Assembly (NCBI RefSeq): GCF_004365655.1
Contig: NZ_SOEO01000003.1
Location: 1 to 64,000, forward strand
Length of the DNA stretch: 64,000 bases
Direction of reading: 5' to 3'
Source of the DNA: Epilithonimonas xixisoli
Lineage (GTDB): Bacteria; Bacteroidota; Bacteroidia; Flavobacteriales; Weeksellaceae
In this document: piece after piece, positions 1 through 51,130 of the stretch
Numbering within the stretch: the stretch's first letter is position 1
Layout of the letters: each line of letters begins with the position of its first letter
Made by a program: the position numbers and the translations under genes
Notes under the pieces: model-generated
Told to the model about the DNA's origin: nothing
What the model saw: the letters and a program-made list of their open reading frames with translations, nothing else
Database searches by the model: none

Positions 1-54
1 AAGCCCTCTAGCGCCGATGGTACTGCGAAAGCGGGAGAGTAGGTCGCCGCCAGT
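1..54 (+). rRNA. rrf: 5S rRNA, 3' end (partial)
   Basis: The window opens inside the 3' arm of a bacterial 5S rRNA: GATGGTACTGCG followed by GGGAGAGTAGGTCGCCGCC is the usual 3' part that pairs with the 5' end. The 5' portion lies outside the window, so a complete rRNA operon probably precedes it on the same strand. A strong terminator follows directly. Confidence 0.9.
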
Positions 55-57
55 TTT

Positions 58-2273: not shown

Positions 2274-4093
2274 AGAATCATTATCCTTTCTTAAAATCGA
2301 CATTTTTATGCATTGGCATTTCATTATCTTCGACTATGGTCGCGCAAATGCAGTTCAGGCTATTCACAGATTTTGCAACTAATCTCACAGATGTGAACGA
2401 TTCTGGAACAGCAATCACCTCTAGTAAATATTACAATTTACCCACTAATTCCTGGACTCCTATAGAGCAGGAAGCAATACAGATGGCATCCATAACCAAT
2501 GATGGCAATGTGGCAGGAGCTATGTTTTATGACGAAGAAAATTACATTTTTCAGCCTGCATACAAAAAAGATGGCGTATGGAATCCTGTGGGCTGGTTGC
2601 CGGATTCAAATCCTTCTGATTCTTCATTTACCACTTATAAAATGTCAAACAACGGAAAATATGTAGTGGGTCAAATGTCAAAAGGCTGCTGTACATTCGG
2701 GAGTTTTTATTACGATACAGTAACACACGAGATGAAGGAAATATTTGATGATGCTTATGTAGCAATCACTGCGTATTCTGTAAATAATGAGGGTATTATT
2801 GCGGGGTGGGCGGATGATCAAAAGTTTGGAAGTACAAGAAGAATTCCTGTATATATTACGCCAGACAAGCAGATTCATTTCATTATTAATCCAAATGATG
2901 TTGGAACAATTTCAGCAGCGTCAGGTGCTCACGACATAAGCGATTCTGGAATTATTGTAGGTAATTACCAGCTTAACGCTTTTGTTTATAATATGAGTAC
3001 TGGAACATACAAGGAATTAGAGCCACTTCCCGGATATAAGAATGCAGATTTAGTAAGTGTTTCAGAAAATGGACTAGCGGTAGGATATGTGCAGTATTTA
3101 GACGATTGGGGAAGTCCAGTACGTGATGCAGTGGTTTATCATCCATCATTGGGAGACAAACTAATTTTGGTAAAGGATATATTGGCAGAAAAAGAAATTA
3201 ACATAGATACTGCTGATGGGCTGCTGGGAACAGCATATGCGGTTTCACCAAACGGAAAATACTTGGGAGGCTGGGTTGGTTCTCCAATATTCGGAAACGG
3301 ATGGATGGCTTACTTGGATGATTATATTAAAACCGAAACCAGCTGCTCACAAGGAGATGCAAGCATCGTATTAGAAGATGGAAATGACATTACAGGTACG
3401 CTCCAAGTTGCTGATGATTTTGTAGTAGCAGCGGGTAAAAAAATGACTATTAACCAAGTGAAAATCAAAACGGTCCACCTTGGTGGTAACCTAAATACGA
3501 TAGCATTCAATTTTTATAAAGATAATGCCGGACTTCCCGGAGCAGTTGAAAGCACGGTAAGTGCAATGACTCCTACATCAATGACACAAGTCGAAACTTA
3601 TTATGGATATCCTGTGTATGAAGTGGTAGCAAATCTACCATCTCCTGTTGTTTTAACCGAAGGAACTTATTGGTTACAGCCAGTTGGCACAGGTTCCAAA
3701 GTATATTTTGGAACAGTTTCTACCAATACAGGTGGTTCCAAAACTGCCCTCAAGAATGGTTCAAGTGCTTGGAATTATAGTTCTTTACCTGCTGCGTATT
3801 CTCTGTTTGAGGTTTCAGGAACTTGTGAAGATGCCCCGACGATGGGTATTACAGACATTAAATCTTCCAATTTTTCATACTATCCTAATCCGATAAATGA
3901 TGTATTGAATATTACTTCTGACAAAAAAGTCAAAAATGTATCTGTTTACAACACTTCGGGACAATTAGTTTTAGTAACAGATAAAATAACAAACGGGCAG
4001 ATGAGTGTGTCTTCATTGGTTTCAGGAGTGTACATCTTCTCTGCCACTTTGGAAGACGGGCAGATTGAGACATTCCGAATCATCAAAAAATAA
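2270..4093 (+). CDS. T9SS-exported HAF-repeat-like protein
   Basis: The product has 607 residues. A signal peptide (about 1-25, ending near VAQ) is followed by repeats of the form 'NDGNVAGA', 'NNGKYVVGQ', 'NNEGIIAGW', 'ENGLAVGY' and 'PNGKYLGGW' at about 70-340. These resemble extracellular HAF-type beta-propeller repeats. A second domain spans about 355-510, and the C-terminus (about 530-607) is a T9SS type A sorting domain with YPNPINDVLNI and a terminal IIKK. It is predicted to be carried across the outer membrane by T9SS and then released or anchored. Substrate and partner are unknown. It is followed by another T9SS cargo gene on the same strand after 113 bases. Confidence 0.85.
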   Translation: MKNHYPFLKSTFLCIGISLSSTMVAQMQFRLFTDFATNLTDVNDSGTAITSSKYYNLPTNSWTPIEQEAIQMASITNDGNVAGAMFYDEENYIFQPAYKKDGVWNPVGWLPDSNPSDSSFTTYKMSNNGKYVVGQMSKGCCTFGSFYYDTVTHEMKEIFDDAYVAITAYSVNNEGIIAGWADDQKFGSTRRIPVYITPDKQIHFIINPNDVGTISAASGAHDISDSGIIVGNYQLNAFVYNMSTGTYKELEPLPGYKNADLVSVSENGLAVGYVQYLDDWGSPVRDAVVYHPSLGDKLILVKDILAEKEINIDTADGLLGTAYAVSPNGKYLGGWVGSPIFGNGWMAYLDDYIKTETSCSQGDASIVLEDGNDITGTLQVADDFVVAAGKKMTINQVKIKTVHLGGNLNTIAFNFYKDNAGLPGAVESTVSAMTPTSMTQVETYYGYPVYEVVANLPSPVVLTEGTYWLQPVGTGSKVYFGTVSTNTGGSKTALKNGSSAWNYSSLPAAYSLFEVSGTCEDAPTMGITDIKSSNFSYYPNPINDVLNITSDKKVKNVSVYNTSGQLVLVTDKITNGQMSVSSLVSGVYIFSATLEDGQIETFRIIKK

Positions 4094-4206
4094 AAACCTT
4101 GAATATTTCAAATCCTTTCTTCAATATTTCAACTAAGAAAGGCTTTGAAGATTCAATTTACTTTATCAATAGAATATGACTTTTCAGCAGTCTAAAATTA
4201 TTAATT

Positions 4207-5754
4207 ATGATAAAAAAAATATTAGTTCTTTCTGGTTTTGTGTTAGCTATTAACAGCTATCAAGCCCAAACTGCACCAGTTATCGAATGGCAAAAGTCTT
4301 TTGGCGGCAGTAAGGAAGATTTTGCCTACGACATAAAACAGACTGCAGACGGAGGTTACATTGTTGCAGGAGATACTAACTCAACAAATGGGGATGTAGT
4401 TGGCAACCACGGCTCCAATGATGGCTGGGTTGTAAAATTAAATACATCAGGAATTGTGGAATGGCAAAAAACTCTAGGAGGAAGTAGCTATGATACTATC
4501 AGTTCTATTTTGCAAGATACAGATGGAAATTATGTTGCGAGTGGTTATTCATATTCTCCAGCTGGTGGTAGAGATTATTGGGTTGTAAAATTAAACCAAT
4601 CTGGGAATATCATTTGGGAAAAGCTTTTTGGAGGGAGTAGTGTAGATACCGCAAATTCAATTTGTCAATCCACAGATGGAGGTTACATCATTGGAGGATA
4701 TACCAATTCTAACGATGGGTTTGTGGCAGGTAATCACGGAGGTACGGATTTCTGGATTGTAAAATTAGATACCTCAGGTAATCTTGTTTGGCAAAAGACC
4801 TTAGGTGGTAGTGATACTGATGTTGCTTTTTCCATCAGCGCAACTACGGATGGCGGTTGCGTCGCAGCAGGACGTTCTATGTCAAATGATGGTGATGTAA
4901 CTGGTAACCACGGCTCTTATCAAGGCGGTGATCGCAGTGATTACTGGGTTGTAAAGCTAGATCCCTTGGGCAATCTCCAATGGCAAAAATCACTAGGCGG
5001 TACAGGTCAGGATATAGCGACTTCTGTTAAACAAATTGCTGAAGGTGGATACATTGTTGTTGGGTACACTTGGTCTGGTAATGATGGAGATGTAACTCAG
5101 AATAAAGGTAATACAGATTATTGGGTGGTAAAACTAAACCCAAGTGGTAATATCGAATGGCAAAAATCATTGGGAGGAACCCTGGAAGACCACGCCTATT
5201 CTGTTTGGCAAACTACAGATGGTGGTTATGTTGTAGCTGGAGAAACATACTCTCCCAATACAGGCGATGTAACTGATAATCATGGCAGTTTTGATGCGTG
5301 GCTTGTAAAACTTAATCCAACAGGAAATATTCTTTGGAAAAAATCTTATGGTGGGATAGATGCCGATATGCCAAACGCTGTTCAACAAACTGCAGACGGA
5401 GGTTTCGTTTTTGCGGCTATTAGTGATTCCAAAGATGGAGATGCTACAGGCTCGGGTAATCACGGGAGCTATGACTATTGGGTAGTAAAGTTGGCTCCAG
5501 AGGAAGTATTGGCAGTAGAGGATACAGACAGTAGAAATATTAGTTTCTATCCAAATCCTGTTATCAATACACTGAATTTACAAAGCAAAGAAAAGATACA
5601 GGATGTAACCATATATAATATAGATGGGAAACTTCTTAATTCTGTAAACATAAACTCCACCAATGCAAAAATAGATATGTCTGCCTACACACCAGGTACT
5701 TACATCATCCAGACCAATGGAGGCAAAAGGCAGACTAAAATTATAAAGAAATAG
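4207..5754 (+). CDS. T9SS-exported protein with DGGYIVAG repeats
   Basis: The product has 515 residues, with a signal peptide of about 20 residues (ending YQAQ). Seven or more tandem repeats of about 50-65 residues follow, each containing W-QKSLGG, a TDGGY(I/V)VAG turn, a NHG motif and WVVKL. Regular repeats of this kind suggest a beta-propeller surface protein. The last 75 residues form a T9SS type A sorting domain (FYPNPVINTLNL ... IIKK). Neighbouring cargo genes and the sorting domain suggest a cell-surface or secreted role; the binding partner is unknown. The DNA repeats are well diverged, so recent expansion is not evident. Confidence 0.85.
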   Translation: MIKKILVLSGFVLAINSYQAQTAPVIEWQKSFGGSKEDFAYDIKQTADGGYIVAGDTNSTNGDVVGNHGSNDGWVVKLNTSGIVEWQKTLGGSSYDTISSILQDTDGNYVASGYSYSPAGGRDYWVVKLNQSGNIIWEKLFGGSSVDTANSICQSTDGGYIIGGYTNSNDGFVAGNHGGTDFWIVKLDTSGNLVWQKTLGGSDTDVAFSISATTDGGCVAAGRSMSNDGDVTGNHGSYQGGDRSDYWVVKLDPLGNLQWQKSLGGTGQDIATSVKQIAEGGYIVVGYTWSGNDGDVTQNKGNTDYWVVKLNPSGNIEWQKSLGGTLEDHAYSVWQTTDGGYVVAGETYSPNTGDVTDNHGSFDAWLVKLNPTGNILWKKSYGGIDADMPNAVQQTADGGFVFAAISDSKDGDATGSGNHGSYDYWVVKLAPEEVLAVEDTDSRNISFYPNPVINTLNLQSKEKIQDVTIYNIDGKLLNSVNINSTNAKIDMSAYTPGTYIIQTNGGKRQTKIIKK

Positions 5755-5803
5755 TAATAGGCAGAAACATAAATGATAAAAAACACTTATGAATTTTAAC
5801 AAT

Positions 5804-5919
5804 TTTTAATATTCCTAGTATTTTTTTTATTCTCAGATAAATTATCTTTTTAATTTATCTGTGCTCCAGTAGCATATTTTTTCAATAAGTGTTTTTGTTA
5901 CATCTACTGGAGCCTTTCT
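5804..5919 (+). ncRNA. Two-hairpin element, copy F (isolated)
   Basis: A leader reading TTAATATTCCTAGTA is followed by a perfect 11-bp hairpin (5834-5844 with 5851-5861, loop TCTTTT). A second hairpin has a perfect 10-bp outer stem (GCTCCAGTAG 5863-5872 with 5904-5913) enclosing about 31 bases, then CTTTCTT. The order (AT-rich leader, first hairpin, CTCC...GGAG hairpin, T-rich tail) matches the five units at 13249-13850. It may simply terminate the upstream T9SS gene, or it may be a structured RNA or the 5' leader of the DNA-binding protein gene starting 30 bases later. Confidence refers to the structure, not a function. Confidence 0.5.
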
Positions 5920-5949
5920 TAATTAATAATGTACTAAACATATACACAA

Positions 5950-6687
5950 ATGGCAAACATCCTACACAAAATCAAAGCTTATCTTTATGAGAATCTTTTA
6001 ACAAAAGATAATCCTAATGATTACATAGCACGCACCGTAAGTGAACGTTCCTTATCAGTAAAACAAATCTGTGAAGCAGCGGTAAACCGTGGCGGTGCAG
6101 ATGTATCATCTGCTGCTATGGAGCACGCTACGGAGCTATTTCTGAAAGAGATGGCATACCAGCTCTGTGACGGTTATTCTATCAATACGGGATATTTTAC
6201 CGCATCTACCCAAATACGTGGCGTGTTTGACAGTCCTACGGAAACCTTCAGTTCCAATAAGCACAATATCCTTTTTCAATTTAATCAAGGAGAAAAGCTT
6301 AGGTCCGAGATTCCTAACATAGAGATTAGTATTCTGGGAGTAGCAGATGCTTCAGCTGTGATTTTGCAAGTAAAAGATGTGAAAAGCGGAACCATCAATG
6401 ACGTGCTGACACCTAAGCGCAATCTGAGAATCTCCGGAAACAAGATAAAAATTGCAGGAGATAATCCTGCTAATGGTATTTTCTTTATTGATACCACTAC
6501 ACAAACGCGAAGACAGGTAGAAGCTAGCGATGTTGTTATCAATAATCCATCGGAACTCATCGTTATCATTCCTCAACTCTCTCCATCTACATACACATTG
6601 GAAGTAGTAACACAATACTCTGGTGGAACCACTACACTAAAAGAACCAAGAACTGCAGTGTTTGATAAACCATTGACGGTTATTTGA
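5950..6687 (+). CDS. IHF/HU-like DNA-binding protein with Ig-like domain
   Basis: The product has 245 residues and no signal peptide. The first 120 or so residues (start MANILHKIKAYLYEN, with VSERSLSVKQICEAAVNRGG) look like the HU/IHF-related DNA-binding domain seen in large Bacteroidetes families. The C-terminal half (about 125-240) has the beta-rich pattern of the Ig-like domain usually paired with it (DUF4469/Bvu_2165 type), including GDNPANGIFF and LIVIIP. The family's function is poorly known. It lies immediately downstream of a two-hairpin element and upstream of the large surface-protein gene. A structural role in local chromatin or regulation is inferred only. Confidence 0.75.
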   Translation: MANILHKIKAYLYENLLTKDNPNDYIARTVSERSLSVKQICEAAVNRGGADVSSAAMEHATELFLKEMAYQLCDGYSINTGYFTASTQIRGVFDSPTETFSSNKHNILFQFNQGEKLRSEIPNIEISILGVADASAVILQVKDVKSGTINDVLTPKRNLRISGNKIKIAGDNPANGIFFIDTTTQTRRQVEASDVVINNPSELIVIIPQLSPSTYTLEVVTQYSGGTTTLKEPRTAVFDKPLTVI

Positions 6688-6710
6688 TAGCATAGAATAA
6701 TGGAGCATAT

Positions 6711-6772
6711 ACACTCGTCCCAATGATAGTATCAAGCTCGCTCGAGTGATGGGCACACATCCGCACGAGTGT
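6711..6772 (+). promoter_or_regulatory. Alternative-pairing hairpin region
   Basis: CACTCG at 6712-6717 can pair with either of two downstream CGAGTG copies (6743-6748 or 6766-6771); the longer pairing is ACACTCGT with ACGAGTGT at 6765-6772. The two folds exclude each other. It sits 24 bases after the DNA-binding protein stop and has no T run. It could be a 3' structure of that mRNA, a processing site or a switch-like leader; nothing in sequence decides between these. Confidence 0.35.
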
Positions 6773-6829
6773 AATGCCACCACGTTAAAATAAAACACAC
6801 AAAACAATAATAAAAACAAACAAATTGCA

Positions 6830-6958
6830 GTGTCAGCAGAAGATAAGATGCATCAAGAAAAGTACGAATTGGGATCAAAAGCGGACTTCTGCATATTGGC
6901 CATACAAACTTTCTTGATTGTAGTCAATGTTTTCCAGTTTTTGGCTTTACAGCAATAG
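6830..6958 (+). CDS. Possible 36-42 residue membrane peptide
   Basis: In the 374-base gap before the large surface-protein gene there is a small ORF. It starts at GTG 6830 (42 residues) or ATG 6848 (36 residues). It has a charged N-terminus (EDKMHQEKYELG) followed by one hydrophobic helix (residues about 20-37) and ends LALQQ. No known family is recognised. The rest of the gap holds the hairpin region at 6711-6772 and AT-rich sequence with no other clear feature. Confidence 0.25.
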   Translation: MSAEDKMHQEKYELGSKADFCILAIQTFLIVVNVFQFLALQQ

Positions 6959-7061
6959 AATAAGATATGTTTACTCTAAGTCTTTTTAATTTCCATCATA
7001 GGTAGTTTCTGTCTTTTTTTATTGATTGAATCTATTGTAAAAACTTAAAAACACAAAAAAA

Positions 7062-10000
7062 ATGATTATGATGAAAAAAAAATCACTCTTTATAGCTTTA
7101 TTGCTAACAATATTTAGTATATATATTCATGCACAATGTACGAATACAGGTGTTCGCCCGGGTGATTCTTATACAGCTGTCGGTTGGAAACCTGTCTGTA
7201 ATGGAGGGACAGACGGTTTTATTAGAATTGGCGCGATAACCAGTAATGCAGGTAATAATGTAAATAGATATTATTCTGCCAGGATATTAACAGCAATTGG
7301 AGGAACGATGGTTTCCACACACCCGATACCGGGCAATGCCACATCCTTTGACATAACTGGACTTCCGGCAGGAAATTATGTTGTCGATATAATTGACCAG
7401 TGTGGGAATACAAGTGCCGACAAAGCTGTTACTATACCTGTTACTCCAGTTAAAACCATTAATTGGACGGGTAGCTATTTATTAGTTGATAAAAAAACAG
7501 TAACAACTTGTGGAGATACTTATACCTACAGATTTTCTTATGATGATTTAATTGGTAACGGTGAAACTTTTACATTTACTATTACTAACAATTTGGGAGC
7601 TACAATATTATTACCAATAAATTCCACAAGAATTCCAGGAATTGGATATGGTACTAATTGGGCGAGTGTAGATATTCCACATTCCTTTTTTAATGGTGCT
7701 GATATTACCGTAAGTTTATCTGGTAATCTATGTTCAACACCAGTCGTAAATAAAATAATTTCTCCACCAACAGGTCCATTTAAAATGAAACCTGGTGGCG
7801 GTGGAGTCGGGATCCAGAATGTGAATTCGGCAACAAACCAGTGTGTTTATGGGTATAATCTTTTTAGAAAAAGACAATTAGGAACTAATCTTATAACAGC
7901 AACAATTGTAGAAACGGTAGGTGGTTTGCCAGCCTACAATATTGAAGGAAACCTTATTCCTACTTTTAACGGCAATGTAACTTATGAGAATATAGGAAGT
8001 ACAGAAACTTTAATTTTTAGTAAATTAAAATATAATACTTCTTATACTATAACCTATACCGATGCTTGTGGTTTAGTAGATACAGAAGTTATAAATTATG
8101 CTCAGCCGCCATTTGCTACTGTGCAACCAGCTTCTTGTTTAAAGTTTGGAAGTGGCGGAAATCTAAGTACTTTTTTAGATAATGCAGGTACTTTAAGAGT
8201 GAATGTTTCCGATGCAGATATATTGGTTCCACCGCTTACCTTTACTATAAACAGCGGTCCAGCTACTTGGACAAGTGCCTTAGGACTTAATCCGGTTACT
8301 ACAAATATTGTTTATCCTATAACAGCAGTTACAAATACAGTTAATACATTCGATACATATCAATTGCCAGCATTTAATGACCCTTTTAAACAAGGATTGT
8401 TGCCTCCTGGAACTTATAATGTTACCTATACCGACGCTTGCGGACATACCAGTACTACAAATGCAACAATTACTGCAGCATGCTCGCCGCAAATGAGTAT
8501 GATAAAGACTTTAGATTATTGCTCTCAAAATAATGGTACTGTTAATTTAAATTATTATATATCACCTTTAGGTGCTTATGATGATGTTAGGATAGTTTTG
8601 TTTAATTCTTCAAACGCAATTATTGCATCGGATTTACAAATCAATTCAAGTGGTGTTAATTTTAATGGTTTAGCGCCTGGCACTTACAAAGTACGTTTTG
8701 GTGGAGTTAAATATGATAACCATAATGAAATCGTTGATTATATTGGGATGCCAAATATGCCTCGTTTGCCTGGTGGTTTTATTTATGAAGAAACCATAGT
8801 TATTTCTCCATTAGCACCTTTAAGTTTTTCTTCTATTGCAACCTGTAATGGAACAACCACTGGTGTTGCTATTGGAGGAACAGCCCCATATACTTATACC
8901 TTGTATGATGCATCTGGTACTACAGTTGTACAACCAACACAGCCAACAGGCTCATTCAGTGGATTAACAGTTGGAGCGACATACCAAATGCGAGCAACAG
9001 ATACTTGTGGTCGCACTTTTAATCAATCATTTGTTGTAGCAGCTAGTGTATTGGCTCCAACTATAGGAATTGTGGTGCAACAATCATGTACTGCTCCAGT
9101 GAGTAGTGTACAATTATCTGACCTGCCAGATGGTGACTGGATTATCACAGACAGCCTTGGTGGAGTGACTTTTAACGGCACAGGCTCAACTACTACATTG
9201 AACAATTTGCCAGCCGGAGTACATACTTTTACAGTCACTTCGGGAACTTGTACATCAAGTGCATCAGCTTCAGTTACTATGTCTCCAGCTACAATATCGG
9301 GTATGGACTCTGATAATGATGGAGTGGATAATGCTTGTGACTTAGATGATGACAATGATGGGATTTTGGACATCGATGAGCAAACGTGTTTATCTTCTAT
9401 TTCTATAGGAGTGAACCCCAATCCAGTTGCCAGTGAATCTTATGGTGAAACTATAGCCACTTATACAGAAGTATCAGGATCTGTTAGGCCGATTACTTTT
9501 GGAGGCTACAACGGATTTGAACCCTCTTATCCTTCAAAAGTGCGAATCGATTACTCAAAAAACTTCATAAATTATGCTTTTAGAGTAGCCGATATGGATA
9601 ATCTGGAAAAAGTGAGACTGTATGTGTATGACAAAACGGGAGCTTTGATAACCAACCTATTACCTTATGTAACTTATAAAGGTTCAGGTATAAATGCCAC
9701 CACTGGTACAGGATACAGCTTAACTATTGAAGCTACAAGTGATGCGGGTGGTGTAAGTAATTCATTTGATCCTGCGAATTACATTGATTTCAAGATACCA
9801 ATTGAAATCTCCAGAATAGATTTTGAATATTTTGATAGGTCTGCAGTTAGTGGTGCAAGTATGACACCAGAATATTATTTCTTAAGCGGATGTGTTGCTA
9901 AAGATACAGATGGAGACGGTATCCCGGATTATCTCGATTTGGATTCTGACAACGATGGTTGTTTAGACGCTATCGAAGGCGGTGCAAATATCACTGCTTC

Positions 10001-12560
10001 TCAACTTACCACTGCTACAGGAACCGTAATTGTAGGTACTGGCTCTACAGCATCCAACCAAAACCTTGGCAATACTGTAGGCAATACAGCTACAACGATG
10101 GGAGTCCCAACAATTGTAGGTACAGGACAAAGCGTAGGACAATCTCAGTCTTTTGCTAAAAATGATTGTTTGGATAGTGATGGCGATGGCATCCCGGACT
10201 GGGATGATGTGGATGATGATAATGATGGTATTTTGGATACGGCAGAATGTAGCAATACAATTACCGATTTGGCAAATGCCTACTCAGGAGGCGCATTGAA
10301 AAATATTGCACCTTCAGATTTTGGCTTAGCTTTAAATGTAAAACATCAGAACGTCACCAAAGATTTAAGTTCAAAATTTGGATATCCAGCCAATTCGGGT
10401 GCCGTAATCATTTCAATCAAAAACGCTTCTGTACATCCAACAGCAGATGCCTGGTGGACAAAGAATGGCGAGCAACCTTCTGTTTGGAATGTTACGGGGA
10501 CTATGAGTGCATTTGTTCTGATGGCCCAAAATACAGAGTATTATGGTAATGACAGCAAGACAATCCATATTTATGACAGCACACCGGTAATCCCTATCAC
10601 ATTACCTGGATTGGAAAACCAAACACCTGTTGCAGGTCAATGGAGCATTGTGGATACACCAACACAAAAAACACTGAATGACCTTAATACCGATACCTCT
10701 TACCAAGAGTATGGAAACTGGAGATATGCCAATATGAATTTTGGAGCTAAATCTTTTGGATTCTCTACCACTACAGCATTTGCTGAACCTACCTATGCCG
10801 TAATGATGTATTTGGAGTGTGATGCGGATATGGATGGCGTACCAAATCGTTTAGACTTAGATTCCGACGCAGACGGCTGTTCCGATGCTATGGAAGGTGG
10901 TGCAAGTATTACAGAATCTCAACTGGTAACAGCTGGCGGAACTGTAAATGGAGGAAGTACAGCTGTAAATCAGAACTTGTGTGCAAGCTCAACCTGTGTA
11001 AGTACCAGCGGAAGCAACATAGGTTTGCCACAGCTCTCTCCATTATCTTCAGGATATAGTAACAATACAGGGCAAACTGTTGGCGATTCTCAAAATGCAT
11101 TGGTAAATAGTTGTCCAAGCCCTTGTGCGATTACAGCAACCAATCCAGATTCAGATGGAGATGGTATTAGTGATGCTTGCGACCTGGATAGTGACAATGA
11201 TGGAATTCTGGATACCAACGAAGGGCGATGCTCCATTCCTACAAAAACCACAACTTGGACTACATCAGCCGGTGGTTCTGCATCTGTCACAGTAACCTCT
11301 ACGGCTACTGTACCAGGTATTAAGTTTACTTCTGCTCCGCAAGTATTAGGAGCAGCAAATAATACAAGTGCCATAAGTTTTGCAAATCATACGTTTAACC
11401 CTACTAACTTTTGGTACACTCCGGGGATCGCTGGTAGTCCATCCTTACAGTTTGACCAGTTTTGGGATATTAACCAAGAAGATGCTGACACTGCTGCTAG
11501 TTATGATGCAGGAAAAAGAACAATTACCATCGTTTTTCCATCACCTATTAACAAGTTATTGTTTAATATAGACCGCCTAGGAGGAAATGGTACCATAAAT
11601 CCAGGTGTTAGTACACGCTACACTAACTCAACAGAGTTTACTATGATATCACTGAATTTTATGATGACAAAGTTGGCTGGTAATCCGCAATTTATTGTTA
11701 CAGCAGATAAATTCTACAGAGAACCTTATGTAGATATAGGAATTGTAAGCCCGGGTGGTGAAGCAACTCCAGCATCAGGATTGCCAGCAAGTTATGGTAC
11801 TGCCGCGGGAACAGTAGAAATCAAAAAAACAGATGGCTCCTCTTTTACAACTGTAGTTTTCTCTACAACGGGTATTGGTGCAGAAGGATTAGGAGATGAT
11901 GCGATGGAAGTTATATTAGAAGGCTGTACAGACAGAGATACGGATTTGGACGGCACCCCAGATTACCTAGACTTAGATTCTGATAATGACGGCTGCTCAG
12001 ATGCCTTAGAAGGAGGTGCAAGCATAACGGAATATCAGCTTGTAACCGCTGGCGGAACTGTAACCGGAGGAACCAGCACAGTAAACCAAAACTTATGCGC
12101 AAGCTCAGCTTGTGTTAGTGCAAGCGGAAGCAACATAGGATTGCCACAAATTTTACCATTGCCTACAGGCTACAGCAACACCACAGGACAAACAGTTGGT
12201 AATTCTATAAATGCGTTAGTGAATGATTGTCTTTGTTATGAATCTCCCGAAGATGTGAGTGCAATAGTTCCAGTAAATCACGGCATCTCTGCACTAGGAA
12301 GAGCGGGCGCAGAAAATGGTAACTGGCCAATGCTTAGAAATTCTGCATACACAGCACTAGAGGCTAAGACCAAAGGTTTTGTGGTAACCAGAACTACCAG
12401 CCCGGAAACTACAATTGCAATTCCTGTAGTCGGGATGATGGTTTTTGATACAGATGAAGACGCTGGCAAAGGTTGTTTGAAAATCTACACCGGTTCTGGC
12501 GTGGGAGAAGGATGGAAATGTTTCACAACACAAGGCTGTCCGCCACCTCCAGGTAAGTAG
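7062..12560 (+). CDS. Giant secreted protein with thrombospondin type 3 repeats
   Basis: The product has 1832 residues and a signal peptide ending near HAQC (residue about 25). Residues 25-740 are Thr/Asn-rich beta-sandwich-like modules with repeated 'YTDACG' and 'DTCG' motifs. The region from about 745 on contains Ca-binding thrombospondin type 3-like clusters (DSDNDGVDNACDLDDDNDGI and relatives near 748, 948, 1038, 1255, 1365 and 1625). Three long repeats of about 90-100 residues each begin with D-DGIPDYLDLDSDNDGC or a variant. The end lacks a T9SS type A domain. Instead it carries a conserved-looking tail (ISALGRAGAENGNWPM ... AKTKGFVVTR ... GMMVFDT ... CLKIYTG ... W-CF) and stops at PPPGK. 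It is probably an adhesin-like surface or matrix protein; the export route beyond the inner membrane is unclear. The next gene follows after 43 bases and is probably co-transcribed. An alternative start is Met4. Confidence 0.8.
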   Translation: MIMMKKKSLFIALLLTIFSIYIHAQCTNTGVRPGDSYTAVGWKPVCNGGTDGFIRIGAITSNAGNNVNRYYSARILTAIGGTMVSTHPIPGNATSFDITGLPAGNYVVDIIDQCGNTSADKAVTIPVTPVKTINWTGSYLLVDKKTVTTCGDTYTYRFSYDDLIGNGETFTFTITNNLGATILLPINSTRIPGIGYGTNWASVDIPHSFFNGADITVSLSGNLCSTPVVNKIISPPTGPFKMKPGGGGVGIQNVNSATNQCVYGYNLFRKRQLGTNLITATIVETVGGLPAYNIEGNLIPTFNGNVTYENIGSTETLIFSKLKYNTSYTITYTDACGLVDTEVINYAQPPFATVQPASCLKFGSGGNLSTFLDNAGTLRVNVSDADILVPPLTFTINSGPATWTSALGLNPVTTNIVYPITAVTNTVNTFDTYQLPAFNDPFKQGLLPPGTYNVTYTDACGHTSTTNATITAACSPQMSMIKTLDYCSQNNGTVNLNYYISPLGAYDDVRIVLFNSSNAIIASDLQINSSGVNFNGLAPGTYKVRFGGVKYDNHNEIVDYIGMPNMPRLPGGFIYEETIVISPLAPLSFSSIATCNGTTTGVAIGGTAPYTYTLYDASGTTVVQPTQPTGSFSGLTVGATYQMRATDTCGRTFNQSFVVAASVLAPTIGIVVQQSCTAPVSSVQLSDLPDGDWIITDSLGGVTFNGTGSTTTLNNLPAGVHTFTVTSGTCTSSASASVTMSPATISGMDSDNDGVDNACDLDDDNDGILDIDEQTCLSSISIGVNPNPVASESYGETIATYTEVSGSVRPITFGGYNGFEPSYPSKVRIDYSKNFINYAFRVADMDNLEKVRLYVYDKTGALITNLLPYVTYKGSGINATTGTGYSLTIEATSDAGGVSNSFDPANYIDFKIPIEISRIDFEYFDRSAVSGASMTPEYYFLSGCVAKDTDGDGIPDYLDLDSDNDGCLDAIEGGANITASQLTTATGTVIVGTGSTASNQNLGNTVGNTATTMGVPTIVGTGQSVGQSQSFAKNDCLDSDGDGIPDWDDVDDDNDGILDTAECSNTITDLANAYSGGALKNIAPSDFGLALNVKHQNVTKDLSSKFGYPANSGAVIISIKNASVHPTADAWWTKNGEQPSVWNVTGTMSAFVLMAQNTEYYGNDSKTIHIYDSTPVIPITLPGLENQTPVAGQWSIVDTPTQKTLNDLNTDTSYQEYGNWRYANMNFGAKSFGFSTTTAFAEPTYAVMMYLECDADMDGVPNRLDLDSDADGCSDAMEGGASITESQLVTAGGTVNGGSTAVNQNLCASSTCVSTSGSNIGLPQLSPLSSGYSNNTGQTVGDSQNALVNSCPSPCAITATNPDSDGDGISDACDLDSDNDGILDTNEGRCSIPTKTTTWTTSAGGSASVTVTSTATVPGIKFTSAPQVLGAANNTSAISFANHTFNPTNFWYTPGIAGSPSLQFDQFWDINQEDADTAASYDAGKRTITIVFPSPINKLLFNIDRLGGNGTINPGVSTRYTNSTEFTMISLNFMMTKLAGNPQFIVTADKFYREPYVDIGIVSPGGEATPASGLPASYGTAAGTVEIKKTDGSSFTTVVFSTTGIGAEGLGDDAMEVILEGCTDRDTDLDGTPDYLDLDSDNDGCSDALEGGASITEYQLVTAGGTVTGGTSTVNQNLCASSACVSASGSNIGLPQILPLPTGYSNTTGQTVGNSINALVNDCLCYESPEDVSAIVPVNHGISALGRAGAENGNWPMLRNSAYTALEAKTKGFVVTRTTSPETTIAIPVVGMMVFDTDEDAGKGCLKIYTGSGVGEGWKCFTTQGCPPPPGK
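9904..10170 (+). repeat. Internal repeat copy 1 of giant surface gene
   Basis: It encodes a module starting with an Asp-rich calcium-binding motif (DGDGIPDYLDLDSDNDGC), then AIEGGANITASQL, a Gly/Thr-rich stretch and NQNLGN ... GQSVGQSQ ... NDC. The module recurs twice more in the same gene. This copy is the most diverged of the three. Confidence 0.7.
10819..11115 (+). repeat. Internal repeat copy 2 of giant surface gene
   Basis: This is the same module as copies 1 and 3. It encodes DSDADGCSDAMEGGASI, ESQLVTAGGTV, NQNLCASS and SGSNIGLPQLSPL. It is closely similar to copy 3 in both protein and DNA, which suggests a more recent duplication or gene conversion between the two. Confidence 0.75.
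11932..12230 (+). repeat. Internal repeat copy 3 of giant surface gene
   Basis: It encodes DSDNDGCSDALEGGASI, EYQLVTAGGTV, NQNLCASSACV, SGSNIGLPQILPL and ends NALVNDC. It is the nearest relative of copy 2. It directly precedes the conserved C-terminal tail of the protein. Confidence 0.75.
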
Positions 12561-12603
12561 ATTTCCAGATAGACCAATCATTAATTTAAAATTTATAAAA
12601 AAG

Positions 12604-13179
12604 ATGAACAAGATATTTTCAATGGTACTAATAAGTGTCTCCATCACAACCTTTTCTCAGGTAAGAATAGGAAAGTCAGATGCAACTTCTCTTAGCAGTA
12701 CTTCTGTTTTGGTGGAGTTTGGAGATACAAAAGATAAAGGAATTGTATTGCCCTATATAGAAACCTTACCTGCCGAAGGTACTGCAACAGCCACAGGTGG
12801 TGCTATCATTTTTGATGTTTCTGCTAACGCCGAATATAAGATAAAAGTCAAAAACCAAAATGTTGGCTGGCGAGACCTCAGCATTCAATCCGGGTTTTCC
12901 TCCGCTGTAGAAAGCGTGGTAAAACCAGCACAGACAGCGCCATTGGCGGATAACACCAATGCAAAAGCAATCATAGGAGCAGCGACTTCTACTGCAGATG
13001 GTATCTTGGTCTTGGAGTCTGCAGACAAAGCAATGGTTCTCCCCATTGTAGATGATTATAAAGCAATTAAAAATCCTTCTCCTGGTATGCTGGCATTCTT
13101 GAGAGGACTTACAGCGGATGAGCATCGCTTGATAGTTTTCAACGGACAGAAATGGACATTTTGGAGACCAAAGAAATAA
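12604..13179 (+). CDS. Exported partner of giant surface protein
   Basis: The product has 191 residues with a signal peptide of about 19 residues (ending TTFS) and a mature start QVRIGKSDATSL. It is a beta-rich domain with GIVLPYIETLP, AIIFDVSANAEYKIKVKNQNVGW, a linker, and GILVLESADKAMVLPIV. The C-terminal part (GMLAFLRG ... LIVFNGQKWTFWRP) resembles the tail of the preceding 1832-residue protein (GMMVFDT ... CLKIYTG ... W-CF). The 43-base spacing suggests co-transcription. It may be an interacting surface subunit; that is inferred from similarity and context. It has no T9SS type A domain. Stem-loop unit A starts 70 bases downstream. Confidence 0.7.
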   Translation: MNKIFSMVLISVSITTFSQVRIGKSDATSLSSTSVLVEFGDTKDKGIVLPYIETLPAEGTATATGGAIIFDVSANAEYKIKVKNQNVGWRDLSIQSGFSSAVESVVKPAQTAPLADNTNAKAIIGAATSTADGILVLESADKAMVLPIVDDYKAIKNPSPGMLAFLRGLTADEHRLIVFNGQKWTFWRPKK

Positions 13180-13248
13180 TGCTGAAAAAGTCAATCCGTA
13201 ACAACGCCAGAAAATTAAAATCTGATAAACTTCAATCATTTAAAAAAA

Positions 13249-13366
13249 ACTAATAACCTCAATATTACTTACAATTAAAGTTTTTTCTTTAGTTAAAAGT
13301 TGTTTTTTACTCCGGGAGTTCTTTTTTCTCCCAAGTTATCTGTAATGTTCTTCCGGAGTTTTTTTG
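13249..13366 (+). ncRNA. Two-hairpin unit A
   Basis: The leader is ACTAATAACCTCAA. A weak A/T hairpin follows (13271-13303), then ACTCCGG (13309-13315) pairs with CCGGAGT (13353-13359) ahead of a run of seven T. It is the first of five tandem units. By position it could be the terminator of the 191-residue protein gene, but it shares its architecture with units that have no gene upstream. Confidence 0.5.
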
Positions 13367-13373
13367 AAATAAA

Positions 13374-13482
13374 ACTAATATCCTAAAAATAGTTAGTCTT
13401 TAGATATTCCCATATGTTCTGACTATTTTATCTTCGGTTGGGATGTTTTTTTTGGAGATTAAACCATCCTGCCGGAGTTTTT
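13374..13482 (+). ncRNA. Two-hairpin unit B
   Basis: The leader is ACTAATATCCTAAAAATAG. The first hairpin is AAAATAG (13386-13392) with CTATTTT (13423-13429). The second hairpin pairs TTCGG-T-TGGGATG (13433-13445) with CATCCTGCCGG (13465-13475) through a bulged T, followed by AGTTTTT. The bulged T lies at the same place as in unit C. Confidence 0.5.
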
Positions 13483-13497
13483 AAAATAAACAATAGT

Positions 13498-13627
13498 AAA
13501 ATTACTAATCTAAAAAAATAACCACTCATAAATAGTTTGAAGGCTAGATTTTAAAAAGGTCACAAAACTATTTTGCTCCGATTGGGATGCTTAGTTTCAT
13601 TTGTGTAATCCCATCGGAGATTTTTTA
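13498..13627 (+). ncRNA. Two-hairpin unit C (best preserved)
   Basis: The leader is TTACTAATCTAAAAAAATA. The first hairpin is AAATAGTTT (13530-13538) with AAACTATTT (13565-13573), perfect over 9 bp. The second is CTCCGAT-t-GGGAT (13576-13588) with ATCCCATCGGAG (13608-13619), perfect over 12 bp apart from one bulged T, followed by ATTTTTT. This is the clearest copy of the family. Confidence 0.55.
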
Positions 13628-13630
13628 ATA

Positions 13631-13745
13631 ATATACTAACCTAACAATAGCCGTTTTTCATTTTATGAAATTGTTAATACTTAAAATCTTCAGCTATCTT
13701 ACTCCAGATAGGAAGTTTTGCGAGTACTATCATCCTGCTATAGAT
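13631..13745 (+). ncRNA. Two-hairpin unit D (degenerate)
   Basis: The leader is ATACTAACCTAACAATAG. The first hairpin is ATAGC (13647-13651) with GCTAT (13693-13697). The second has a left arm CTCCAGATAGGA and a right arm CATCCTGCTATAG that pair imperfectly. There is no T run, so this copy should not terminate transcription. This argues against all units being simple terminators. Confidence 0.4.
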
Positions 13746-13749
13746 TGAA

Positions 13750-13850
13750 CAAAAAACACATATATAAAAGACTTAGATGTAGAGTTTCTAAGTTTTCTCT
13801 CTCTGCATGGGGTGCTGTTTTTCGTGTCAGCCTCTCACCGGAGATTTTAG
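13750..13850 (+). ncRNA. Two-hairpin unit E
   Basis: The first hairpin is ACTTAGA (13771-13777) with TCTAAGT (13787-13793), perfect over 7 bp. The second has a left arm CTCTGCATGGGGTGCTG and a right arm CAGCCTCTCACCGGAG, then ATTTTAG. It ends about 50 bases before the first HTH gene, so it may form part of that gene's leader. Confidence 0.4.
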
Positions 13851-13901
13851 TTCAAAAATGTTAAGATTGAGCCTTGATATTCATAGATAATATATACAAA
13901 G

Positions 13902-14324
13902 ATGAGTTTTAAAAACATCCATATTGGTAAACTACTGGAGAAGAGGGTTGAAGAATGCGATATAGAAATCGACAGAATTTGTAACTTTTTGAATTGCTCC
14001 GAAGAAGAGGTTCAAAAGATGTATGAATGCAAAAGCCTTGACACAGAGCTACTCCTAAGATGGAGCAAACTTCTTGAGTATGACTTTTTCAGACTCTATA
14101 CACAACATTTGATTTTGTTCGCACCACAATCTGCTTCTCAAAAGATAAAAAACCTTGAAAAGTCTCCACTACCCCAATTTAGAAAAAACATCTACACGAA
14201 GGAAGTTATAGATTTTATTCTGGAAGAGATCACGACAGGGAACAAAACAAAATTACAGATTGTAGAAGAATATAAAATTCCAAAAACCACCCTCTATAAA
14301 TGGATAAGCAAATACAAAAATTAG
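13902..14324 (+). CDS. Two-HTH protein, transposase-OrfA-like C-terminus
   Basis: The product has 140 residues. The N-terminal part (about 8-70, HIGKLLEKRVEECDIEID ... LLLRWSKLLEYDFFRLY) looks like an XRE-type helix-turn-helix. The C-terminal part (about 93-138, YTKEVIDFILEEI ... EEYKIPKTTLYKWISKY) resembles the HTH of IS3-family OrfA proteins. I recall similar proteins recurring in Chryseobacterium genomes near surface-protein genes, without a known function. No catalytic transposase (DDE) gene is nearby, so this is not a working insertion sequence. It begins a run of three tightly packed ORFs and follows the stem-loop array directly. Confidence 0.65.
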   Translation: MSFKNIHIGKLLEKRVEECDIEIDRICNFLNCSEEEVQKMYECKSLDTELLLRWSKLLEYDFFRLYTQHLILFAPQSASQKIKNLEKSPLPQFRKNIYTKEVIDFILEEITTGNKTKLQIVEEYKIPKTTLYKWISKYKN

Positions 14325-14653
14325 CATTGCTGGTAAAAATGTATCTCAATGAGTCTAAAGAGCAATTGCTTGAAGATTTAGGCTCACCCAACAAGTATTC
14401 TAACAAACATATATGGTTTTACACCAATTATAGATTTTTGATATTTCAAGATGAAATTGCATTTATTTTTGAGAGAGATAGGGTTGTAGATATTGTTATA
14501 ACAGAGTATGTTCTTTGGAGGAAAGTGAGTAATATATTTTTCTACGAAGGGCAAATTCCGGAGTATAAAGTGAACCGATTATCCAAAAAAATTAGAAAAT
14601 ATGGGAACTCTACAACCAGATTACAAACGAATCTATACAGATATTCTGAATAA
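14300..14653 (+). CDS. Hypothetical protein between HTH genes
   Basis: The product has 117 residues from the ATG at 14300, which overlaps the previous gene by 25 bases. Met14 (14339) would start just after that gene's stop and may be the real start. The protein is rich in aromatic and basic residues (NKHIWFYTNYRFLIFQDEIAFIFERDRVVDIVITEYVLW) and has no recognised domain. Its 3' end overlaps the next ORF by 53 bases, and its last 15 residues look like an out-of-frame reading of that gene. This hints at a lost original stop codon. Confidence 0.5.
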   Translation: MDKQIQKLALLVKMYLNESKEQLLEDLGSPNKYSNKHIWFYTNYRFLIFQDEIAFIFERDRVVDIVITEYVLWRKVSNIFFYEGQIPEYKVNRLSKKIRKYGNSTTRLQTNLYRYSE

Positions 14654-14963
14654 AAAATATCCTGAAAAGAAAATGAGATGCGAGTCTATATTAATGAAAG
14701 AGAAAATCTCAGTCTTGGACGTTATACAATTGAATAAAGAAATATTTGGAGTACCCGATGCGGAAACAGCACGTTTCAACCAGAAACACCGCTCTTACAA
14801 TCCGTCTGATATCATTGAAATTCTAGAGTATCAGAAGAAAAACAAATTGAATAATATACAGCTGGCATTGCGTTTTAAACTAAGCAGAAATACTGTAGCA
14901 AAATGGAAGAAAATGAACATTGTTAAGTCCGGTAAAGGAGAATGTACAGAAAAGAAACATTAG
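14601..14963 (+). CDS. HTH protein, second of cassette
   Basis: The product has 120 residues. The N-terminus (LQPDYKRIYTDILNKKYPEKK) and the middle (SVLDVIQLNKEIFG ... FNQKHRSYNPSDIIEIL) look like a conserved Flavobacteriia family. The C-terminus (residues about 84-108, NNIQLALRFKLSRNTVAKWKKM) is a transposase-type HTH, analogous to the C-terminus of the first gene in the cassette. The start at 14601 is kept because the conserved part begins immediately after it, although it overlaps the upstream ORF. Function is unknown; DNA binding is inferred from the HTH. Confidence 0.6.
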   Translation: MGTLQPDYKRIYTDILNKKYPEKKMRCESILMKEKISVLDVIQLNKEIFGVPDAETARFNQKHRSYNPSDIIEILEYQKKNKLNNIQLALRFKLSRNTVAKWKKMNIVKSGKGECTEKKH

Positions 14964-14982
14964 CATTGTAATCTTGAGAAAA

Positions 14983-15273
14983 AGAGAAGCGCTGTAAGCC
15001 GGATTCTGTCGAGACTTGTTATTTATCTGCGTTTTACATTGCTGCAAAACTTTTGCTGCTTACCCCTCATCAATGCCCGAGCCGAACTTAACTGATGATA
15101 TACTTAGCATTGCACCGCATAGAGTTTACCTGGTTTCACTACAGCCGAACTGTACTTGCTTTCTGTTGCACTTGTCCTACTCTCGCAAGTGACGGATGTT
15201 ATCCGCTATGCTGCCCTATGGTGTCCGGACTTTCCTACCCAAAATAATCTGGATCAACAAGTCACGCTTCTCT
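14983..15273 (-). ncRNA. rnpB: RNase P RNA
   Basis: On the minus strand the RNA starts AGAGAAGCGTGAC at 15273. It carries the conserved GGAAAGTCCGGACACC block and the GGGCAGC segment, and ends with GGCTTACAGCGCTTCTCT. The first and last 9 bases (AGAGAAGCG / CGCTTCTCT) form helix P1. The ACAGAATCCGGCTTACAG 3' signature is typical of bacterial type A RNase P RNA, which matures tRNA 5' ends. A T-rich stretch follows the P1 stem and probably ends transcription. Confidence 0.93.
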
Positions 15274-19208: not shown

Positions 19209-19345
19209 AACTAAATACTTTAAAAATTTGGGCGTATCCCTCGCCAATACCAAGGCCATCGCTCGGGTCGGGCTATCCACTACTATCTTCTCCTTGCCTG
19301 GCAAGGCAAGCAGAAGGATATCCGTTTCTATCCCTTACGCAGGAT
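19209..19345. repeat. Dispersed intergenic repeat, copy R1
   Basis: It contains AATTTGGGCGTATCCCTCGC, CGCTCGGGTCGGGCTATCC, ACTACTATCTTCTCC, AAGGATATCC and CTATCCCTTACGC. The same blocks appear in the same order on the opposite strand at 31080-31215. It lies between two minus-strand genes and extends the open frame of the TlpA-like gene without being part of it. Confidence 0.8.
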
Positions 19346-19363
19346 TATCCTTCAATAGAAGAT

Positions 19364-31015: not shown

Positions 31016-31079
31016 ATGTTTTGATGGGAATTAATTTGATTGATATGGAAAGCTTTTTTTGATTGAGAAATCTTCAATC

Positions 31080-31215
31080 CTGGCGAAGCGCGTGAGGGAT
31101 AGTAGTGGATATCCTTTTTTGGCGGATGGAATTAGCGGATGGAAAAAAGATAGTAACGGATAGCCCGGCCCGAGCGGTGGGAAAAGCTTTGGCAAGGGAC
31201 ACGCCCAAATTGTTG
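31080..31215. repeat. Dispersed intergenic repeat, copy R2 (inverted)
   Basis: Read on the minus strand it holds AATTTGGGCGTGTCCCTTGC, CCGCTCGGGCCGGGCTATCC, TACTATCTTTTTTCC, AAGGATATCC and CTATCCCTCACGCG. This is the same order as copy R1 at 19209-19345, in opposite orientation. Small insertions differ between the copies. Confidence 0.8.
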
Positions 31216-34035: not shown

Positions 34036-34135
34036 GCTGTTTCCCGCTATCCGCTATATCTTTTTTTGCCAAAGCTTTTCCCGAAGCAAAAAAAGGATGT
34101 CGCTACTATCGGGGCTATGGGTTTTGTCATCCAAT
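34036..34135. repeat. REP-like element, variant R3
   Basis: Elements CCGCTATCCGCTATATCTTTTTTTGCC and GCAAAAAAAGGATGTCGCTACTATCGGGG form an imperfect palindrome. They share blocks (GCTATCCG, CTACTATC, AAAAAGGAT) with R1 and R2. It lies between the divergent DUF2480 and lpxB genes. Confidence 0.55.
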
Positions 34136-51064: not shown

Positions 51065-51071
51065 TTATGAA

Positions 51072-51103
51072 AAATCCCCGAGCGAAAGCTTGGGGATTTT
51101 TTT
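51072..51103 (+). terminator. GAAA-loop terminator, copy 3
   Basis: ATCCCCGAGC-GAAA-GCTTGGGGAT (51074-51097) is followed by T8. The hairpin is identical to copy 2 and one base different from copy 1. It serves the cupin gene and, in reverse, could help end the minus-strand T9SS gene. Confidence 0.9.
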
Positions 51104-51130
51104 GTAGTGAGTTTTCGGTGGATTTTAAAA

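Follow-up and report, generated by a model that had tools for sequence, protein, structure and literature searches.

Tandem sibling small RNAs, such as LhrC of Listeria, consist of units of approximately 110–120 nt with two hairpins and a T tail. To our knowledge, transcription termination and small RNAs have been little studied in the phylum of the present host. Tandem intrinsic terminators, such as the two of Escherichia coli rrnB, end a transcription unit with consecutive T-tailed hairpins on its 3′ side, and a small RNA between the dual terminators of E. coli rrn operons is described in the available part of one report (PMC8144298). In the present study, we analyzed an array of five units (A–E, 13249–13852, + strand) in a stretch of 64,000 nucleotides (the window) from Epilithonimonas xixisoli. 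The array resembles the rrnB terminators in its serial T-tailed hairpins. However, it has five units rather than two, the loops of units A–C are 19–31 nt long, and the units carry an additional A/T-rich hairpin. The tandem arrangement of units of approximately 110–120 nt with two hairpins and a T tail is also shared with LhrC and, according to a partial account, with the Neisseria siblings. In contrast to the sibling small RNAs, the array has no exact −7 boxes, no homologues were found outside the genome, and one unit is decayed. Flavo-1 RNA (RF01705) is likewise a repeated structured RNA of the host genome, but the array has no Flavo-1 match.

The array is located between a gene of 191 aa (12604–13179), which we call the partner gene, and the HTH1 gene (13902–14324), all on the + strand. 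Upstream of the partner gene, a 5.5-kb gene (7062–12560, +) encodes a giant surface-type protein of 1832 aa with weak matches to a T9SS sorting domain and to TSP3. The partner protein has no Pfam family. Its gene is multi-copy, with 10 matches in the own genome (a 3.39-Mb assembly, the sole genome of the species examined) and matches in 23/23 genus genomes; relatives at 16 loci of Chryseobacterium, Epilithonimonas, and Cloacibacterium showed 57–65% identity over the best segments. The gene at 5950–6687 (+) encodes an HU-like DNA-binding protein with a DUF4469 domain (PF14848, E 2e-39; PF14734, E 2.6e-30), with matches, some of them fragments, in 11 of the 23 genus genomes, the own genome included. 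HTH1, the first gene 3′ of the array, is present in six copies in the own genome, and its protein has weak HTH matches under the Pfam cut-offs (best E 0.0095). An HTH2-like gene (14601–14963, +) shows a weak HTH_23 match (E 0.061). HU-like and partner genes lie a few kb apart at several genus loci, some of which also have HTH1 (window 5950–14963; G007:C27, G007:C32, G034:C1, G010:C5, and G016:C2). These gene contents suggest that the HU-like/partner neighborhood, with or without HTH1, is a recurring multi-copy locus type.

Several RNA genes were noted in the same window. The RNase P RNA gene (14979–15273, −) is directly behind the HTH2-like gene on the opposite strand. Positions 1–55 (+) gave a truncated, sub-threshold 5S rRNA match (27.4 bits, cut-off 38, E 0.18), and, therefore, the contig may break in an rRNA operon. 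Three Flavo-1 RNAs are present at 19262–19349 (−), 31073–31174 (+), and 34036–34120 (−). The Flavo-1 covariance model, which found nothing in the array, gave 110 matches at E≤0.001 in the own genome, of which 64 exceeded the cut-off; 150 candidates out of 968 were scored. This copy number is high for an RNA filed as a small RNA.

The initial annotation described five consecutive units of approximately 100–130 nt that share one order, a bulged T in two of them, and one unit without a T run; we confirmed each of these features. Every unit proceeds from a leader through an A/T-rich hairpin to a second hairpin with the feet CTCC and GGAG, or remnants of these. The long-loop second hairpins are at 13309–13359 in unit A (13249–13372; tail TTTTTTG), 13432–13477 in unit B (13373–13492; tail TTTTTAAA), and 13576–13619 in unit C (13503–13631; tail ATTTTTTA), and units B and C contain the bulged T. 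Unit E (13753–13852) has its A/T-rich hairpin and a second hairpin at approximately 13800–13844, with the tail ATTTTAG. Unit D (13632–13752) has lost its foot pairs as well as its T run and is a decayed member of the array. No ORF within the array exceeds 48 aa.

The second hairpins of units A, B, C, and E were equaled by 2, 15, 1, and 38 of 1000 shuffles, respectively. The first hairpins were weaker in this test (36, 3, 50, and 17 of 1000 in the same order). Both hairpins of unit D folded no better than chance (374/1000 for the first and 371/1000 for the second). Units A, B, and C form three strict long-loop T-tailed hairpins within the 641 bases from 13240 to 13880, a number that 0/300 dinucleotide shuffles reached (mean 0.02, maximum 1). 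Across the whole 64-kb window, the same scan of both strands found 25 hairpins, of which seven were outside the listed ORFs: A, B, C, the upstream element S discussed below, one inside the RNase P RNA gene, and a place at approximately 51071–51126, entered on both strands, which contains a short-loop hairpin. The stems of units A–C comprise 10–13 pairs, with 6–7 G-C pairs, and are followed by T tails. Thus, these three units have the G+C-containing stem and T run of an intrinsic terminator on the transcribed strand; unit E ends in ATTTTAG, a short T run, and unit D lacks the arrangement. Since the loops are long and a terminator scan for loops of 3–8 nt found no site in the array, we call the units terminator-like and not terminators.

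The five units are related, mainly through their second hairpins. Similarity was matched by no more than 2 of 200 shuffles in 8/10 pairs of whole units, 5/10 pairs of second hairpins, and 1/10 pairs of leaders with first hairpins. With leave-one-out profiles of the arms, B, C, and E ranked first among approximately 128,000 positions, while D ranked 10th and A 19th. Tandem Repeats Finder did not report the array because the units are too diverged. Concerning structure, 83.3% of the 60 cells in the A–E alignment pair, and 4/12 pairs are changed on both sides; these values were reached by 36/500 and 19/500 shuffles, respectively. The cells changed on both sides were equaled in 15/500 shuffles, the further pair types in 153/500, and the covariation score in 22/500. 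Shifting the partner by 1–3 columns lowered pairing to 35–53%. The addition of S and the hairpin of relative G010 to the alignment raises the covariation numbers, both having been picked for their shape. The statement that the arms differ and nevertheless remain paired was borne out; the selection on structure deduced from it is plausible and, with 4/12 pairs changed on both sides, moderately supported.

Covariance models, for which the E-values are rough, were used in searches for further copies, with part of the first-look candidates scored in each search. R2, built from A–E only, recovered all five units, with E-values between 2.5e-8 and 1.2e-4; in the 23 genus genomes (150 candidates scored in each), no other sequence scored better than E 0.2. 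In the own genome, R1, for which S and the G010 hairpin also served as input, recovered none but its training units at E≤4e-4, the next candidate being at E 1.56 (150 of 2959 candidates scored). In 296 family genomes, R1 returned only its own sequences, a similar copy in G016, and a single borderline match in G183 (E 0.047). R2 did not recognize the hairpins of G010 and G016 (17 bits, E 1.2). The initial annotation had called for such a search and had counted a lack of covarying hits elsewhere against its proposal; the array-only model gave none. A covarying hairpin family of different sequence occurs at the genomic position of the array in relatives, as described below, and an array of like sequence was found in no relative searched. 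In blastn searches of 320 family genomes, 134 (the own genome included) matched the array at E≤0.01; among the matches listed, those other than the array itself were AT-rich pieces of 20–73 nt with E 7e-5 or worse.

These searches also bear on other origins. A phage or plasmid origin of the array was rejected because no blastn match was obtained. REP or other dispersed palindromic repeats were rejected because R1 and R2 (150 candidates scored per model) found only the array locus in the own genome, R1 also finding S. An integron attC array was rejected because no gene cassettes (no ORF >48 aa) separate the sites. Decay from partner or HTH gene copies was also rejected, since 123, 13, 38, and 191 of 200 shuffles equaled the similarity of the array to their DNA; the two tblastn matches between the array and the neighboring genes spanned 19 residues (E 0.52) and 13 residues (E 0.021). 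A known RNA family was rejected as well. The view that the units belong to no described family is upheld by Rfam 15, in which nothing matched the array at gathering scores and, with a permissive threshold, no match was better than E 1.1. Nothing on the array was found among the titles and abstract openings listed in literature searches.

A sixth unit had been proposed at 5804–5919, upstream of the HU-like gene. The corresponding element S (5796–5921, +), behind the gene at 4207–5754, has the two-hairpin architecture and folds very well (hairpin 1, 0/1000 shuffles as good, z −8.5; hairpin 2, 1/1000, z −4.1). Kinship by sequence is favored by the comparisons of B with S as whole units (2/200 shuffles as similar) and of C with S in the second hairpin (1/200). 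The other units were equaled in similarity to S by 9, 19, 29, and 11 of 200 shuffles as whole units and by 5, 6, 76, and 23 of 200 in the second hairpin. R2 scored S at noise (15.7 bits, E 2.3 in 236 kb), and S ranked 18th of approximately 128,000 positions in the arm-profile test, which is unremarkable for an element picked by eye from 64 kb. The two-hairpin architecture of the sixth unit stands, but on these grounds we do not count S as an established copy. The idea that S is conserved with HU-like genes was also rejected because, within 250 nt upstream, 0/13 loci of relatives had a T-tailed hairpin like that of S; one of these 13 matches begins inside the gene, such that its stretch is not truly upstream.

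The initial annotation offered three roles for the units, namely, small RNAs, structured targets of the adjacent HTH proteins, and transcription-control elements. The last fits best because a lone T-tailed long-loop hairpin occupies this position in the relatives G017, G010, and G016. In G017, which has the closest orthologue of the partner protein (84% identity) and lacks the array, 33 nt separate this hairpin from the end of the partner-protein match. Next come a gene of no more than 164 aa and HTH1 (L045 from approximately 2684), which is only a partial match and is interrupted by a stop. G010 and G016 each have one such hairpin ahead of HTH genes. Thus, the 3′ position of the partner gene is occupied by one long-loop hairpin in some relatives and by five related units here.

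We consider it an even chance that the array is a lineage-specific multiplication of the terminator hairpin at the 3′ end of the surface-protein operon, which gives stepwise termination. The T-tailed hairpins are on the + strand and are flanked by + strand genes. On the coding strand, units A, B, C, and E each end in a T-tailed hairpin that resembles an intrinsic terminator with an unusually long loop; unit D is dead. The HU-like, giant protein, and partner genes would form one operon, and RNA polymerase leaving them would meet successive imperfect terminators. Transcripts would then end stepwise, and the HTH genes would be shielded, with little transcription reaching them. 3′ RNAs whose ends are structured would arise as by-products, and read-through at one terminator followed by a stop at the next would yield RNAs of approximately 120 nt. 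The available part of a transcriptomic study on Flavobacterium psychrophilum reports 67 3′ regions from partial termination (PMC9723704). The single hairpins behind partner genes of relatives, among them a covarying family (see below), and the lack of an exact −7 box in the array also favor this reading. Several observations speak against stepwise termination: the loops of 19–31 nt (A–C) exceed the usual length in intrinsic terminators, the scan for loops of 3–8 nt found no site in the array, the T run is missing from unit D and short in unit E, long-loop hairpins are not in significant excess behind partner genes (see below), and the A/T-rich first hairpin has no role in the explanation. The array would descend from a single hairpin behind the partner gene; against this descent, R2 and R3, a model of the hairpins in relatives (see below), each miss the hairpins of the other.

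Alternatively, the array may be a neutral relic, in which an AT-rich intergenic hairpin was duplicated in tandem and is now decaying, one terminator still being sufficient. We regard this as rather unlikely, and it is the strongest of the alternatives. It would readily account for the loss of the fold and T run in unit D, the modest covariation within A–E, and the lack of an array of like sequence in the relatives searched. However, four of the five second hairpins still fold despite sharing little sequence, and 4/12 pairs are changed on both sides.

The reading as sibling small RNAs ranks next and is also unlikely. Each unit of approximately 110–120 nt would be one RNA, ended by the second hairpin as its terminator and either started from its own promoter or processed from read-through RNA. 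The unit size, the layout of two hairpins and a T tail, and tandem copies of differing sequence all suit this reading. In contrast, unit D is decayed, no homologues were found in relatives, and neither the array nor S contains an exact TAnnTTTG, the −7 box described for F. psychrophilum in the available part of PMC9723704. One box with a single mismatch and an upstream TTG was found in the array and S, inside a loop. Other promoter types are possible; based on the lack of an exact −7 box, five separately started small RNAs are unlikely, and the proposal of separate small RNAs was not supported in this form. Moreover, the units show no special pairing with the start regions of neighboring genes: the giant gene ranked 31st–44th of 46 for units A–E, and the best rank of a neighbor was 6th, for the HU-like gene with unit C. 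Antisense action on the neighboring genes was rejected by these ranks. RNAs may perhaps be released between the terminators of the array, by analogy with the rrn operons.

The hairpins behind partner genes in relatives were examined as a group. A long-loop T-tailed hairpin follows the partner gene in 17/98 regions and a short-loop hairpin in 45/98; the 98 regions comprise 95 distinct ones, including that of the window and L062, which is misplaced at a contig end. Among 43 control genes of the window, a long-loop hairpin followed four (S included) and a short-loop hairpin 19. Thus, long-loop hairpins are not in significant excess behind partner genes (17/95 distinct regions versus 4/43, Fisher p 0.31). 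Seven of the 17, from seven species, form a group that we call the L-family (L145:54–123, L146:46–122, L149:47–122, L151:69–136, L069:2106–2176, L071:2102–2172, and L072:2107–2175). All 71 counted cells of its stem are paired, a result that 0/500 shuffles reached and that is partly due to selection because the seven members were picked as hairpin-forming. Five of the 12 pairs are changed on both sides (17/500 shuffles); for the cells changed on both sides, the further pair types, and the covariation score, the values were reached by 0/500, 388/500, and 0/500 shuffles, respectively. The loop contains the invariant U-rich sequence AATTTGTG(T)TTTTTT, and no Rfam family matches the group. This loop appears complementary to A-rich ACACAAA leaders, for example, that before the giant gene at 7062. 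At L078, a spacer of 386 nt between a partner gene (5486–6007) and a 599-aa gene (3300–5099) holds a further long-loop hairpin with a T tail (TAGCCCCCT...AGGGGGCTA), the sequence of which is unlike the others.

As an independent test, R3, the model of the seven L-family members, was run on the genus. Apart from the members of the model, 12 matches reached E≤0.5, including five at E≤0.051. In all, three matches, each among the best five, are 21–67 nt behind the ends of partner-protein matches; one of the three, that of G017, was known beforehand and was deliberately kept out of the model. The remaining genus matches have no partner gene within 1.5 kb. In the 316 family genomes, one further match (E 1.8e-4) was obtained, from another genus and with no partner gene within 1.5 kb. 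In the own genome, where 150 of 3716 candidates were scored, no R3 match reached E≤0.5, and in 229 kb the model did not recognize unit B (14.9 bits, E 3.4) or S (16.3 bits, E 1.7), which ranked fifth and fourth, respectively, without significance. The L-family is a candidate RNA family behind multi-copy surface partner genes. A bolder reading, to which we give little credence, would make the array at least four small RNAs that represent one branch of an undescribed group of RNAs at the 3′ ends of partner genes in this genus. The RNAs of the array would share terminator feet and have diversified loops, they would be released from one surface-protein operon by stepwise termination and processing, and the stem of the group would covary freely around an invariant U-rich loop.

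Very improbable is the proposal that the adjacent HTH proteins or the HU-like protein recognize the units as structured targets in DNA or RNA, which adjacency alone favors: HTH1 has six copies in the genome with units at one of those loci, R1 found no match at E≤1 on the stretches with the other five (L077–L080), which argues against the units as general HTH targets, and the HU-like loci of relatives lack an S-like hairpin (0/13).

The L-family is a side finding that may matter more than the array itself because it provides a testable candidate RNA family in seven species. If the units of the array terminate transcription stepwise, they would represent a natural terminator that works in several steps, downstream of a 5.5-kb gene for a surface protein. 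Stepwise termination, if true, would also be a possible source of 3′-derived RNAs in this phylum.
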